From assembly GCA_009885955.1 (NCBI GenBank), contig VFJS01000078.1, forward strand, positions 1 through 33,518: 33,518 bases of DNA, written 5' to 3'. Every line of letters starts with the position of its first letter. Position 1 is the stretch's first letter. Shown here one piece after another: positions 15,973 through 33,518 of the stretch. The DNA comes from Spirochaetia bacterium. Its GTDB lineage: Bacteria > Spirochaetota > UBA4802 > UBA5550. The translations under genes were made by a program, and so were the position numbers. The notes under the pieces were generated by a model. It searched no databases. It was not told the DNA's origin and worked only from the letters and a program-made list of their open reading frames with translations.

Positions 15973-16046
15973 TTTTTTTATTCTTCAATACATCACGTTT
16001 CCAGGTTAAAATATATTTATCAAGCTTTATTTTTTACTTCATTCTT

Positions 16047-16487
16047 ACATAAATTCAATGCCCTCACCCACTTCGACAAGTGCTGCACTAAGCTATGCCG
16101 AAGTACTCAGTGCACCGCCCGACCCCTCGCCCTACTGGGCTAACTTCTACCCACATCTTTCGAATCAGCCCCCGGCCGATGATACTTATAATAAATCATT
16201 AATATTTTCCGGCCACCCCCGGAAGGGGTTAATGAAAATAATGGATTTTTATTGTATAATATATCATTTCAAATATGTTTATGCAATTTGATTGTGACGA
16301 TACTTTCTCTGTAATAAAAATCGATGTTAATAACCACCTACGGGGGTGGCGGCAGTATGTAATAATCAAACATTGAGTTTATCCGCGGGAGGCTTATGTT
16401 TGGGCGTTACTCATGTAGAAATGTGGGTAGTAGTTAGCCCTACCGGGAGAGGGTGCGAGAAGCGCGGGTGAGGACATGAGATTTATA
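16047..16487. repeat. ~440-bp imperfect inverted-repeat element
   Basis: It fills most of the 614-bp spacer between the enoyl-CoA hydratase-like and cytochrome genes. The ends mirror each other: 16048-16069 against 16466-16486 (shared CCTCACCC). Inner blocks pair better: 16137-16156 with 16421-16440 (19 of 20), and 16212-16221 with 16341-16350 (10 of 10). The pair centres differ by some 20 nt, so the arms have diverged by indels. The centre is AT-rich. No transposase is encoded, so it may be a MITE-like element or two head-to-head copies of the repeat family seen at 11.72 and 21.83 kb. Confidence 0.6.
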
Positions 16488-16586
16488 AAATCGAAAGTAT
16501 GTTATTTCCCATTAATCCGGGATGTGCAAAAAATTTTAATTTAAATTGAGTATGGAATAAAAAATAACAAGTGATATCATTAACAA

Positions 16587-18917
16587 TCAGAACATATTCG
16601 GATATACTCTCGGTAAGAATGGACCATCAACGCCTAACAGCATGAGCTCATTTTCACCATGGCAGCTGTTAGCGCATGTTTTTTGATGTATCCACGTTTT
16701 TCCGTGAAGGTGACACTCCATACAGTTGCTGTTTTCATCTGGCACTCCGGGCCATGGACTATCCATACCTTCAGCCCAATGACACCCTTTGCAATCCATA
16801 TGATAATTTGCAAGCCCACCTCCATGACATGCAACACAGAGATTCTTCATTGTATTTCCGCTGGTCACAGAAATATCCGTTGTTGTACTGACAGTGGAGT
16901 TTATATGAAAGACGTTTCCGCTCCCGTGGGAATCATGACAGCCGGTACATTCCGCCCTGGAAACATGGTTGGAAGTCCCGGGACCGGCCGTGTGGCATGT
17001 GACACAGAAAGCGCTGGTACTCTGTGTCCATACCTGCCCTGCTGAAAGGGGATTGATAAGCGGCCTTGAATCCGATGCCCGATGCGCTCCGTGGCAGTCA
17101 AGGCAACTCAGCCTCTTTCCTGAATAGGACTGGTCGCTATTGCTCATGTCATGGTGCGCATTAATCCTGCTCGATGTGGCAACTTCATCGTAATATCCTC
17201 CCGGCGTTGTTGTTGCGGCAAGCTGCAGGGATGAGGTGAATTTCGCCTTTACATCGGGTGCCGCCCCGTTTCCAAAGGGAGAATAGGGATCAGCTAACCT
17301 TGAAGCCCCGCTGCTGTCATGGCAATTGATGCAGAAATCCGATACATTGGGGCTTGACGCAAGGTCCTTCCAGAAGCTGAAAACATAATTGGCCCCTCCA
17401 TCAGGATCAATGAGTTTGATATATCCGTTCCGGTGATTTACCTGGTCGTGGCATATAGTGCATGTACTGATTCCGGTCTTAACATGCCCGTGTGATGATC
17501 CAGAGGGAAATTCCCCGGCAACGGCCCTGCGGCTGTTAAGTGAAAGTGTATGGCAGATAAGGCAGTCCGTTGTTTCATACCAGGGGAGTGCGAGTGCAGT
17601 GTTGCCGTGGCATATAATGGAAGAACATCCGCCTGTTTGGTTCCCGGTATCATTTACCCATGAGCCTGCGGAATTTCCTGAATCAAAGATAACAATTGCT
17701 GCTGATGGGTCTGGAGTATCAAAAATTCCATTCATGTGCCTGACATTTGTCCTGTACCCGCTATGACATGCCTCGCAGGCAATGCCCAGGCTGCTTACAT
17801 GGGCCTGGTGTTTTCCGCTGCTCCCGGAACCGTTCGTGGAAACCGGGTCTATTGAGCTCCCGGGAGAATGGCACACCGTGCATCCCGGGTCAGGCCCGTA
17901 CCATGAAATTTTTTCTGATGACCCTCCATGGCAGGTCACCGATGAACAGCTCCCGGTCTGCGGACCGGTGTCATCGGACCATGAAGCCAGAGGGTTATCA
18001 GAATCAAAATTCACTATCATCACTGATGGATCATCTGAATCAAGGTGTTTGTTCTTATGCCTGGGCGACGTGCCGTATCCGCTGTGGCATTTGACGCATT
18101 CAATGCCTGAATGCCTGTCATGACTTCCTGCAGTCCCGGTGCCGTTTGTCACATAGGGAAACTGGGGCGCATGACACATGGTGCATTGGGCCTGGGTCTG
18201 TGTATACCAGTCATTGGAGCTGTGACATGCGAGGTCACTGCATGTTTTTGAAATATTGTCCCACCGGGCAGAGGCGTTGGTCCCGTTGAAAAATATCATT
18301 GAAATACCGTCTGTCCTGCCGCTTGACCCGTTCATGTGCCCGGGATTTGATTTGTACTTATTATGGCAGACCTGGCAGTCTATCCCCCAGTTTTTTACAT
18401 GATTTTCATGCTTGCCCATGCCCGTTGCCCCGTTTATAACCACGGGGTCAATGGCGCTCCCGGGCGTGTGGCACTCAAGGCATCCCGACGGATCACTGTA
18501 CCAGCTTATCTGCCCCCCGGATCCGCCGTGACAGCTGACGTTGCTGCAGCTCTTCGATGAACTGTTCCAGACAATGTATGGATTAAGGCTGTCGAATTTC
18601 AGGATTGAAGCGCTTGTCCTGATATCATACACCCCATTCATATGTTTTGGATCGGCAAGGTAATCCCTGTGACAGTTTTCACAGGAATCCCCTTTGGCCA
18701 GATGAATCCCGTGTTTTCCGGATTCAGGAGGATATTTCTTCAAGGATGTTGATGGATGGCATTCTGATGCCAGGCAGCCGGTTTTATCAGAAGCAGGTCT
18801 TTCATTAAGCCTGCTGCAGCCCTGGGTTAAAAGGGAACTGAGAGTTACCAGTGAAACAATTATTACATTAAATATAAACTTCGGCAAAGGAATATTTTTT
18901 TTGGTTAGATATTTCAT
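16587..18917 (-). CDS. 22-motif multihaem c-type cytochrome lipoprotein
   Basis: 776 residues with an N-terminal signal and likely lipoprotein Cys (LLTQGC, 30-35). I count 22 candidate haem-attachment motifs: 16 CxxCH, five CxxxxCH (first CLASECH, then CSNVSCH, CSDLACH, CSSVTCH, CSSIICH) and one terminal CxxxCH (CANSCH). The N-terminal two thirds is built of repeats of ~100-130 residues, each with HMNG, FDS..., W, CxxxxCHGG, SWY, GCxxCH, PGSxIDP, GKHxxHV and GIxCxxCHxxY. Such CxxxxCH proteins are known from metal-reducing Geobacter relatives. Predicted periplasmic or surface electron carrier. The C-terminal third has more loosely spaced CxxCH motifs. AGGA precedes the ATG. The gene follows a metal exporter gene by 90 bp on the same strand. 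Confidence 0.9.
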   Translation of the reverse strand: MKYLTKKNIPLPKFIFNVIIVSLVTLSSLLTQGCSRLNERPASDKTGCLASECHPSTSLKKYPPESGKHGIHLAKGDSCENCHRDYLADPKHMNGVYDIRTSASILKFDSLNPYIVWNSSSKSCSNVSCHGGSGGQISWYSDPSGCLECHTPGSAIDPVVINGATGMGKHENHVKNWGIDCQVCHNKYKSNPGHMNGSSGRTDGISMIFFNGTNASARWDNISKTCSDLACHSSNDWYTQTQAQCTMCHAPQFPYVTNGTGTAGSHDRHSGIECVKCHSGYGTSPRHKNKHLDSDDPSVMIVNFDSDNPLASWSDDTGPQTGSCSSVTCHGGSSEKISWYGPDPGCTVCHSPGSSIDPVSTNGSGSSGKHQAHVSSLGIACEACHSGYRTNVRHMNGIFDTPDPSAAIVIFDSGNSAGSWVNDTGNQTGGCSSIICHGNTALALPWYETTDCLICHTLSLNSRRAVAGEFPSGSSHGHVKTGISTCTICHDQVNHRNGYIKLIDPDGGANYVFSFWKDLASSPNVSDFCINCHDSSGASRLADPYSPFGNGAAPDVKAKFTSSLQLAATTTPGGYYDEVATSSRINAHHDMSNSDQSYSGKRLSCLDCHGAHRASDSRPLINPLSAGQVWTQSTSAFCVTCHTAGPGTSNHVSRAECTGCHDSHGSGNVFHINSTVSTTTDISVTSGNTMKNLCVACHGGGLANYHMDCKGCHWAEGMDSPWPGVPDENSNCMECHLHGKTWIHQKTCANSCHGENELMLLGVDGPFLPRVYPNMF

Positions 18918-22910: not shown

Positions 22911-23070
22911 TTCTATTGAAAAATAAAATTTTCGTTCACACTCTCAGCCTTTAACAAATCATCCGTGCAGGCATGATTCAAGGCATGGGGGAGTAAGAGG
23001 ACTTTTTGATAACAGACAATGTACAATGATAAAACTTATTGTACTGCGTCTCAGGGTTGATATATAATGT

Positions 23071-23111
23071 AACCGGTATTTTTTGTCCATATCAGGAAAT
23101 ACCGGTTTTTT
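23071..23111 (+). terminator. intrinsic terminator or attenuator ahead of the lipoprotein gene
   Basis: A perfect 11-bp stem (AACCGGTATTT, 23071-23081, with 23097-23107), a 15-nt loop and a run of T (23106-23111). It lies only ~40 nt before the ATG at 23150 and ~340 nt after the previous gene. It may end upstream transcription or act within the lipoprotein leader. Confidence 0.65.
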
Positions 23112-23149
23112 ATGATTACCCTGAATATTATAATTTAGGATGTTTATAC

Positions 23150-24937
23150 ATGAAAAAATTACTATCGTATGCTTTTATTCTCACCATTGCCCTGTTCTTT
23201 GGAGCCGGGTGTTTCGGCGGGGATACGAAATCGACTGATTCTAATGATACAACCACATCGGGTCCGGAATTAAACGTCAAAATCAATTCAGCTAATTATG
23301 CATCGGGGGGTTCTTATCCCTTTAGCCAGGTACTGGTGGGTTCATCCACGGTCCCTTTAACATTTACCGTAGAAAATACCGGCACAGCCAGTTTAACCCT
23401 GACTTCCCCTAACCTCACAGGTGACACTGCCGATTTTACCCTTACCACAAGCGGTTTTAGCACCACTATTTCACCGGGTTCCAATACAACCTTTACCGTT
23501 GCTTTTAATCCGCTCTCAGCAGGCTCAAAAAACGGCTGGCTTACATTCACAAGCAGCGATTCTGACGAGGCCAGTTATTCCGTGCATTTTACCGGGAGCG
23601 GTACTGTATCTGAGATGAATTTGATCTATGGCTCCTCAAATTCACTGGCTTCAGGAGCTAATTATAGTTTTGGCGGTGTCCAGACAAGCGCATCCACTAC
23701 CCTCACTTTTAACATCCAGAATCTAAATGCCGGGCCATTGACAATCAGCGGTATTACCATAACAGGGACCAGTACCAGCGACTTTGTCCTTAATACCACG
23801 GGGACGATGACCACCGTTCCGGGAAGCACACAAACCTCCTTCACCTTGACCTTTACTCCCGGAAGCCCGGGACTAAAATCTGCCCTCCTTACCGTAACGA
23901 ACAGTGATTCCGATGAAGGGACATATACAGTGAATTTATCCGGGACCGGAACCTACTATGTAAGCACCTATGCGGGAATAATGACTTCTCCTGGAATTAC
24001 AAATGGTGCATCGAGCACTGCTCAGTTCCAAAATCCTGTAGGTTTAGCCTTAGATTCGGGAAGATTCTATATTGCCGACACCGGGAACAACAAAATCAGG
24101 ACCCTCGATTGGTTTGGGAGTGTAGCGGACCTTGCAGGTTCGGGGACGTATGGATGTATCAACGGAACCAGCTCCAGTACCGCTCAATTTAAAAACCCTA
24201 ATGGTGTTGCTGTTGCATCTTCATCCGATGTTTTTGTAGCTGATACTTACTGCCATATGATAAGAAAGGTAACCTGGGACGGAAATGTATCCTTTTATGC
24301 TGGAACGGGAATATCTGGCAGCAACAATGGCGCAACAAGTACAGCAACATTCTCTTTTCCCAGAGGGATTGCTGTTGATTCAGCAGGAAATATCTTTGTG
24401 GCTGATACCGGCAATCACCTCATTAGAAAAATAACTCCTGGCGGCACTGTATCCACACTTGCTGGTTCAGGTACGGCAACCAGCACTGATGGAACAGGCA
24501 CAGCCGCTTCTTTTAATCAACCCTATGGACTGGCTATAGCATCATCATCCGGAGATATTTATGTTGCTGATTATTTTAATCATAAGATCAGAAAAATTAC
24601 TTCAGGCGGTGTTGTAACCACTTTTGCGGGTTCGGGTTCGGCAGGGAGCCTGGACGGCACAGGAACTGCCGCTCAGTTCAGCTATCCTCAGGGTATAACG
24701 ATAGAGAATTCGACAGGGAACCTGTTTGTGGCCGATTCAAACAATAATATAATCCGGCTTATAACACCTTCGGGAGTTGTGACAACCATTGCAGGCACAC
24801 CAGGGATTTCAGGGTCAACCAATGGATTGGGGACTACGGCAAGGTTTGGATCTATCCAGGGTATTGTGGTTGATGTTTTCGGAAACGTCTATGTTACCGA
24901 TTATACTAACCATGTAATCAGAAAAGTGGTTCCATAA
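23150..24937 (+). CDS. lipoprotein with two ASH-type Ig domains and a six-blade NHL propeller
   Basis: 595 residues from ATG 23150, chosen over an upstream TTG at 23039 because it gives a proper lipoprotein signal (LFFGAGC) and has AGGA ~10 nt upstream. After a Ser/Thr-rich linker come two ASH/choice-of-anchor-D-like β domains of ~105 residues, each with LTFTVENTGTASLTL-type and DSDEASYSV-type strands. Then six NHL repeats follow, each with AGSG...NG/DG, F..P.G(I/V)A(V/I)D, G(N)(I/L)(F/Y)VADxxNHxIRK(I/V)T and a GGVV-type link. Such propellers bind ligands or proteins at the cell surface. A paralogue faces it at 25222-26661. Export to the periplasm or surface is expected; the partner is unknown. 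Confidence 0.88.
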   Translation: MKKLLSYAFILTIALFFGAGCFGGDTKSTDSNDTTTSGPELNVKINSANYASGGSYPFSQVLVGSSTVPLTFTVENTGTASLTLTSPNLTGDTADFTLTTSGFSTTISPGSNTTFTVAFNPLSAGSKNGWLTFTSSDSDEASYSVHFTGSGTVSEMNLIYGSSNSLASGANYSFGGVQTSASTTLTFNIQNLNAGPLTISGITITGTSTSDFVLNTTGTMTTVPGSTQTSFTLTFTPGSPGLKSALLTVTNSDSDEGTYTVNLSGTGTYYVSTYAGIMTSPGITNGASSTAQFQNPVGLALDSGRFYIADTGNNKIRTLDWFGSVADLAGSGTYGCINGTSSSTAQFKNPNGVAVASSSDVFVADTYCHMIRKVTWDGNVSFYAGTGISGSNNGATSTATFSFPRGIAVDSAGNIFVADTGNHLIRKITPGGTVSTLAGSGTATSTDGTGTAASFNQPYGLAIASSSGDIYVADYFNHKIRKITSGGVVTTFAGSGSAGSLDGTGTAAQFSYPQGITIENSTGNLFVADSNNNIIRLITPSGVVTTIAGTPGISGSTNGLGTTARFGSIQGIVVDVFGNVYVTDYTNHVIRKVVP

Positions 24938-25221: not shown

Positions 25222-26661
25222 TTATGGAACTATTTTCCGTATCTTGTGACTTCCTGAATCAGCCACATAAATATTTCCCAATGCATCAACCACCAATCCA
25301 ACAGAAGAATTAAAACTCGCTGAATTACCCGGCCCATCAATACTCCCCGGTGTTCCCGATCCGGCAATGGTTGTCACTACGCCGGCAGGGGTCACTTTCC
25401 TTATGCATCCTCCATTGCCAAAATCTGTCACATAAAAGTTTCCACCTGAATCAATTGCTATACCCTGGGGTGAAGTAAATAATGCTGCAGTCCCTGTGCC
25501 GTCTGCATATCCCGAAGAAGATGTTGCTGAACCAACGAATGTTGAAACAACCCCGGCCTGGGTGATCTTCCTGATTTTATGATTACTAGAATCAACCACA
25601 AAAACATTATTTGATGCATCGACAGCAACACCCATAATCGTCTGACTAAATGTAGCCGTACTGGTAGCTCCATCGGCATTGCCGTAGGCCCCGGTCCCGG
25701 CAAAAGTTGTCACAACACCAGCCGGGGTAACCTTCCTTACTTTATAATTTTCACCCACATAGAGATTATCCGATGAATCTATTGCAATACTATAAGGAAA
25801 ATTGAAAGATGCAAGGGTCCCAGTGCCGTCGGTACTCGTGGAATTAAAGTTACCAGCTAATGTTGACACAACCCCTGCAGGTGTTATTTTTCTAATCATA
25901 TGATTTTCCGCAATGAAAAGATTGCCCGATGAATCAAATACAACGCCATTGGGCCGTTGGAACGACGAAGTGCTTGTGCTTGCGCCATTGGTATTAAACT
26001 GAATACCATTACCGGCATAGGTAGTGACAACCGTGGAAGTGGTTATCATCCGGATCTTATGGCCATAATAGTCTGAAACAATAAGGTTGCCTGAAGTATC
26101 CAAGGTGATTCCCCAGGGAGTATTAAAAGATGCGGCAGTACCGGTGCCATCGGTACTGGTTGCAGTACCTGAACCGGCAATAGTGGAAACAATTGCCGTT
26201 GTGCCCTTGACCGTGATGGTATAGGTTCCTTCATCTGAATCATTGTCTGTTATAGTAAGCACTGCAGACCGTGAACCCCTGGCCCCCGGGGTGAAGGTAA
26301 CGGTGAAAGTCGTGCTTCCAGCTGCGGCTATGGTATTACTGATGCCGCTTGTGCTTATGGCAAAATCCGATGTATGGCCTGAAGTCATACTCGGGTTCGA
26401 TAAAGTCAAACTCCCTGTTCCCAGGTTCTCAATGGTAAATGTCACGGCAGAGCTCGATGAGCCAAGATTTACCTGTCCGAAATTATATGCTCCATAGCCC
26501 GAAGACAAAGTTGTTGTAGCCTGTTTTACATTAATTTCAGGAATTGTAGTACCGGTATTATTCGTAGTACTTGTATCCTTTTTTGAATCACTTCCGGAAC
26601 ATCCTGCCATAAGAAAAAGGGAGAGGGTGAGACTGAAACCGTAGGTAAGTAATTTTTTCAC
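25222..26661 (-). CDS. lipoprotein with one ASH-type Ig domain and a six-blade NHL propeller
   Basis: A 479-residue paralogue of the protein at 23150-24937, but with one β domain instead of two. It has a lipoprotein signal LFLMAGC, a Ser/Thr-rich linker, and an ASH-like domain (about 42-155, ending DSDEGTYTITVKG). Six NHL blades (157-479) carry repeats such as AGSGTATSTDGTGTAASFN and the end motif NHKIRKI. One blade has lost the usual VAD (VGENYKVRKV). The start is GTG at 26661 with GGAGG 11 nt upstream. A stretch of the first blade nearly equals a blade of the sister protein. Both genes end facing each other with separate terminators. Confidence 0.88.
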   Translation of the reverse strand: MKKLLTYGFSLTLSLFLMAGCSGSDSKKDTSTTNNTGTTIPEINVKQATTTLSSGYGAYNFGQVNLGSSSSAVTFTIENLGTGSLTLSNPSMTSGHTSDFAISTSGISNTIAAAGSTTFTVTFTPGARGSRSAVLTITDNDSDEGTYTITVKGTTAIVSTIAGSGTATSTDGTGTAASFNTPWGITLDTSGNLIVSDYYGHKIRMITTSTVVTTYAGNGIQFNTNGASTSTSSFQRPNGVVFDSSGNLFIAENHMIRKITPAGVVSTLAGNFNSTSTDGTGTLASFNFPYSIAIDSSDNLYVGENYKVRKVTPAGVVTTFAGTGAYGNADGATSTATFSQTIMGVAVDASNNVFVVDSSNHKIRKITQAGVVSTFVGSATSSSGYADGTGTAALFTSPQGIAIDSGGNFYVTDFGNGGCIRKVTPAGVVTTIAGSGTPGSIDGPGNSASFNSSVGLVVDALGNIYVADSGSHKIRKIVP

Positions 26662-33171: not shown

Positions 33172-33178
33172 ATAATAT

Positions 33179-33518
<340 letters not shown>

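Follow-up and report, generated by a model that had tools for sequence, protein, structure and literature searches.

A 22-motif multihaem lipoprotein gene in a spirochaete genome and its family of candidate haem wires

The gene and its surroundings

A gene encoding a 776-residue multihaem lipoprotein (P0001) was identified on the minus strand of the window, which is the whole stretch of 33,518 nucleotides that was analysed. The following features were assigned to the gene:

16587..18917, minus strand: gene for the 776-residue, 22-motif multihaem lipoprotein (ORF, motif count, shuffle test, profile scores)
18816..18917, minus strand: signal peptide and lipobox-like site, with residue 34 as the predicted lipidated Cys (hydrophobic stretch, then LTQGC)
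18756..18776, minus strand: N-terminal CxxxxCH site CLASECH, residues 48-54 (family signature CxASxCH)
18468..18713, minus strand: tri-haem unit 1, residues 69-150 (motif order, unit alignment, profile matches)
18171..18410, minus strand: tri-haem unit 2, residues 170-249 (same evidence)
17868..18122, minus strand: tri-haem unit 3, residues 266-350 (same evidence)
17550..17810, minus strand: tri-haem unit 4, residues 370-456 (same evidence)
16662..17492, minus strand: C-terminal part with nine motifs (eight CxxCH and one CxxxCH), residues 476-752

The protein contains 16 CxxCH, five CxxxxCH and one CxxxCH motif, exactly the counts given for its 776 residues in an earlier sequence-only reading of this DNA. 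These motifs contain 44 of the 45 Cys residues, C34 being the sole exception. Residue-shuffled versions of the protein contained on average 0.30 CxxCH and CxxxxCH motifs (maximum 4), and a chance origin of the motifs was considered and dropped. A zinc-finger or iron-sulphur protein was also dropped as the identity of P0001, because all Cys residues but one lie in haem motifs and a signal peptide is present. The lipoprotein signal claimed earlier was found as a hydrophobic stretch followed by LTQGC, the lipobox being assigned by eye and by Cys accounting; the Cys-Ser at this position is invariant across seven aligned relatives. The mature protein has a mass of approximately 79 kDa without haem.

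P0001 is the sole haem-motif product among the longest non-overlapping ORFs of at least 60 residues in the window. The neighbouring genes are both on the same strand. At a distance of 90 bases upstream, a cation efflux protein is encoded, and the downstream gene is for an enoyl-CoA hydratase. Scans for promoters and terminators gave results near the shuffled expectation. Just downstream of the P0001 gene lies a dispersed, MITE-like repeat whose inverted arms are imperfect (16040-16490). Approximately 10 long copies of this repeat occur elsewhere in the genome with 75-94% identity, and one of them (C80:32554-32873) precedes a further cytochrome paralog by about 240 bases. An exported thioredoxin of the TlpA/ResA-like type, members of which can serve cytochrome c maturation, is encoded 4 kb from the P0001 gene (11909-12409). 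Two convergent genes at 23039-24937 and 25222-26661 encode lipoproteins with an Ig-like domain and NHL repeats. A 23S rRNA gene on the minus strand, with its 5' end cut off, occupies the end of the window (33177-33518), and the contig probably stops at 33,518 because its end falls inside this gene.

Tri-haem repeat units

Four tri-haem units of approximately 100 residues begin at residues 69, 170, 266 and 370 of P0001 (period 96-104), each with the layout HxxH-CxxCH-H-CxxxxCH-CxxCH. Written as spacer lengths, the order of the haem motifs in the whole protein is 4-242-242-242-242-222222223. When residues and motifs were shuffled, a mean of 0.16 tri-haem units was obtained (maximum 1), and shuffling of the motif order alone yielded a mean of 0.92 (maximum 3), against four in P0001. 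The internal repeats reported earlier correspond to these four units and exceed both shuffle controls. A tandem-repeat search of the gene at the DNA level found none; the units are therefore repeats at the protein level only.

An alignment of 36 units from P0001 and related proteins contains 12 invariant columns, which comprise two His, the first haem site, a further His, the CxxxxCH site, a Trp and the final Cys-His. The three invariant non-motif His residues per unit would be enough to provide two His ligands for every haem. The Cytochrome_C7 profile (Pfam PF14522) matches 34 of the 36 units, in the case of the first-listed one along almost the entire unit. The Geobacter CxxxxCH/CxxCH domain matches 21. 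P0001 itself scores 63.3 bits against Cytochrome_C7 (cut-off 24.8; best stretch 598-662) and 51.1 bits against TIGR01904 (curated cut-off 27; four stretches). Four pairs of a CxxxxCH followed by a CxxCH were found within a TIGR01904-type domain, all of them in the tri-haem units. The unit order HxxH-CxxCH-H-haem-haem corresponds to that of the tri-haem c7 cytochromes.

AlphaFold2 models had low mean pLDDT values (27 for the whole protein and 41 for one unit). A sequence search of solved structures (PDB) with P0001 retrieved no chain at E up to 1, and searches with profiles gave weak haem-motif matches only. A c7 fold with bis-His ligation is predicted for the units from their residue patterns. 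The profile matches, together with the spread of the unit in the Geobacter order, indicate that it is of an already known kind.

Paralogs and relatives

The P0001 genome, a draft from an uncultured organism (4.77 Mb, 98% complete), contains six more members of the family at four other places. The largest has 2803 residues and 78 motifs, 72 of which are in 24 consecutive tri-haem units, and it is adjoined by a paralog of 1270 residues with 30 motifs. Further paralogs have 898, 837 and 824 residues with 23, 15 and 18 motifs, respectively. The last consists of two ORFs of 282 and 475 residues that overlap in different frames and contain 14 motifs combined; it represents either an assembly error or a pseudogene. 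The loci of the largest and the split paralog are as follows:

L011:8723-17134 (contig C10 of genome G000), minus strand: 2803-residue, 78-motif paralog
L012:7235-9455: split paralog

A pair of genes for a response regulator and a kinase lies upstream of the 2803-residue paralog. Directly after the 837-residue paralog, on the same strand, is a gene for an 862-residue lipoprotein with FG-GAP repeats and Ig-like domains (L013:3212-5800).

The aligned family members have in common the lipobox Cys-Ser and a start that resembles CxASxCHxS. Five relatives share the sequence LTCxGxGxxGTGCHG, a C-x9-CH pattern, where P0001 has an ordinary CLDCH (residues 605-609):

L013:5801-8314, L014:6325-8799, L012:8028-9455, L040:5878-8445 and L039:5890-9078: relatives with C-x9-CH

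The pattern could represent a disulphide, or else a haem site whose loop is stretched. In lipoproteins of the Geobacter order, one site that is CxxCH in a relative reads C-x6-CH to C-x12-CH. The closest relative, a protein of 1062 residues from another spirochaete genome (L039:5890-9078), contains an inserted YVTN-like repeat stretch in its C-terminal part, which is probably a beta-propeller as assigned by eye.

Distribution

TIGR01904 matches over the cut-off were detected in seven of 393 Spirochaetota genomes. Five of these genomes, including that of P0001, belong to the same taxonomic family. The sixth (G201) is from another spirochaete family and encodes a protein that retains the N-terminal signature of the P0001 family; the match in the seventh (G129) is weak, contains an internal stop codon and looks like a chance match. 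The unit profile matches 86 of 117 Geobacter-order genomes, in open frames of up to 2859 codons. The tri-haem unit is common in the Geobacter order and rare in spirochaetes.

Compared with other spirochaete proteins, the units of P0001 reach 78-93 bits; with the sampled Geobacter-order units they reach 32-34 bits, a gap that sets the spirochaete proteins apart as a group in this sample. A tree of the N-terminal regions contained no supported branch. A scan of named genomes with P0001 alone found nothing, and a scan with the alignment retrieved two contigs of one spirochaete MAG and one Geobacter contig. The matched Geobacter genome gave no match in a whole-protein search and 26 matches with the unit profile.

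Electron-transfer genes elsewhere in the genome

A cytochrome c maturation cluster was identified at C10:112-118 kb, where CcmB, CcmC-like, CcmE and CcmF proteins and an ABC ATPase adjoining CcmB are encoded; a separate CcsA-like gene is present at C41. The sequence-only reading had made its proposal depend on such a system, and the Ccm genes are present. Two proteins that combine b561 with multihaem regions and one NapC-like multihaem protein are encoded at C55. Multihaem genes adjoin NrfC/NrfD-like genes at C7 and C39, the latter assigned by reading the sequence. A nine-motif lipoprotein encoded at C83 has an MtrC/MtrF domain (PF22113, 127 bits), which is absent from the domain matches of P0001.

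Two groups of genes combine a barrel-like protein with multihaem cytochromes. At C60, a 446-residue barrel-like protein is followed by cytochromes with 21 and 8 motifs, and at C10:163-166 kb a 501-residue barrel-like protein occurs with a 14-motif cytochrome. Both barrel-like proteins have signal peptides, and their C-termini are -FIF and -YIF. Neither has a Pfam or PDB match, and for this reason they are described as putative porins; a crude strand-alternation score did not separate them from a cytochrome control. Within the window the P0001 gene has no linked conduit gene, and the MtrB_PioB barrel was not found in the genome. A cluster of genes for a barrel and a periplasmic multihaem cytochrome was likewise not found in the window. 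The earlier remark that the gene has no porin or second cytochrome next to it thus applies within the window and not to the genome, which contains other cytochromes and barrel-like partners elsewhere.

CxxCH-coding patterns occur 678 times in the genome, compared with 133 for a reversed control pattern. The genome therefore holds more multihaem protein than has been catalogued, and the catalogued cytochromes are a lower bound.

Proposed function and alternatives

The assignment of P0001 as an exported electron-transfer cytochrome is well supported by its signal peptide and lipobox, the motif accounting, the Ccm genes and the Geobacter-type domain. This much of the electron conduit proposed in the earlier reading is upheld. 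A strict conduit across the outer membrane is not shown for P0001, since its gene has no linked barrel or periplasmic partner.

The preferred reading, to which a probability of roughly 60% is assigned, is that P0001 serves an extracellular electron-transfer chain as a lipid-anchored multihaem wire or reservoir. After export, its N-terminal Cys would be lipidated and the Ccm system could attach up to 22 haems, most of the protein forming a row of c7-like tri-haem domains. In a setting of anaerobic respiration, quinol-oxidising membrane cytochromes would pass electrons to periplasmic cytochromes, the barrel-cytochrome groups would carry them across the outer membrane, and lipid-anchored wires such as P0001 would store them and spread them to acceptors outside the cell. 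The outer-membrane or surface location, the direction of electron flow and the partners of P0001 are putative. In four Geobacter-order genomes, lipoproteins with the tri-haem unit are encoded after a barrel-like protein and a pentahaem lipoprotein, and this ExtB-ExtC gene order makes a surface role of P0001 plausible by analogy.

Unlikely, and still the strongest of the alternatives, is a periplasmic electron store or relay, held by its lipid anchor at the periplasmic side of one of the two membranes, not exposed at the surface and similar to GSU1996 and GSU2210. The c7-like unit of P0001 agrees with such a role, GSU1996 being composed of four tri-haem domains in a single periplasmic chain (PMC10138318), and a lipid anchor is compatible with a chain on either side of the outer membrane. 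However, GSU1996 is not described as lipid-anchored (PMC10138318), and the single-unit lipoproteins of the Geobacter order occur in ExtBC-like clusters, whose lipoproteins have a predicted outer-membrane location.

The nanowire-like polymer subunit suggested earlier, which would polymerise into an extracellular filament like OmcS, OmcE or OmcZ, found no support and is very improbable. The many haems and the export of the protein would suit a filament, and cytochrome filaments reportedly have multiple origins (PMC9473688). Nevertheless, P0001 has no sequence match to any solved chain, its lipid anchor suits attachment to a membrane better than a free filament, and the paralog chains range in length from 824 to 2803 residues. 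Since a single chain already contains a row of haems, a wire within one chain fits better than a polymer. The least probable alternative is a multihaem enzyme, such as a reductase of oxyanions or nitrogen compounds: some multihaem proteins are enzymes and similarities to DmsE and nitrite reductase were noted, but these are marginal or far below the cut-off and cover haem-motif stretches, no catalytic domain is matched, and the repeats carry enough conserved His for two per haem.

Extending the lipid-anchored wire to the whole genome is more tentative. The spirochaete lineage may possess a complete chain of extracellular respiration, composed of its own lipid-anchored and length-variable haem wires (14-78 haems in c7-like tri-haem units), barrel-cytochrome conduits and quinol oxidases, a proposal that is held with somewhat less than even confidence.

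Significance

Extracellular electron transfer is a hardly described way of life in spirochaetes. A 2020 study reported that fatty-acid-degrading Spirochaetota express multihaem cytochromes (PMC7382037). Two studies found spirochaetes enriched, either with iron oxide or on electrodes (PMC13374861, PMC8258643). Spirochaetes are not mentioned in a 2014 survey of porin-cytochrome clusters (PMC4245776). The P0001 genome encodes candidates for a full set of parts, of the gene types through which metal-respiring bacteria export electrons, and so suggests that a spirochaete lineage carries out extracellular electron transfer. The hints from the expression and enrichment studies thereby become testable. 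No account of the spirochaete lipoprotein family was found in a literature search that was thin on subscription journals. The family also offers one haem-wire design in naturally occurring lengths, which would help in studying how the number of haems affects electron storage and reach.

Comparison with known systems

P0001 shares its repeat unit and motif pair with the Geobacter CxxxxCH/CxxCH-domain cytochromes (TIGR01904, PF09698), which form long tandem arrays in the Geobacter order. It differs from them in its lipid anchor, N-terminal CxASxCH site and nine-motif C-terminal part; in the long Geobacter-order unit proteins with a visible start, the signal is not of the lipoprotein type. The spirochaete units are also closer to one another than to the sampled Geobacter-order units.

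GSU1996 and GSU2210 likewise contain tri-haem domains in a row on one chain (PMC10138318). These proteins are periplasmic and have 12 and 27 haems, respectively, whereas P0001 has CxxxxCH sites, longer units and a lipid anchor; in sequence, the solved GSU1996 fragment 3ouq is matched only marginally (E 3.5). P0001 shows no sequence relation to the solved filament subunits OmcS, OmcE and OmcZ.

The extABCD cluster is needed for growth of G. sulfurreducens on electrodes; a different cytochrome often takes the place of its outer lipoprotein (PMC6148476). Like P0001, ExtABCD includes multihaem lipoprotein cytochromes; ExtABCD is at the outer membrane, where P0001 is predicted to be, and the P0001 gene has no neighbouring barrel or pentahaem lipoprotein. 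The likeness was drawn through the four Geobacter-order genomes in which the gene for a lipoprotein with the tri-haem unit comes after barrel-like and ExtC-like genes.

By motif count, the 78-motif paralog falls into the same size class as the 86-motif cytochromes of Desulfuromonas acetexigens and ANME-2c archaea, which belong to phyla other than the spirochaetes. The count of 86 is the largest in the literature read (PMC12133095, PMC9012536), and 78 is close to it.
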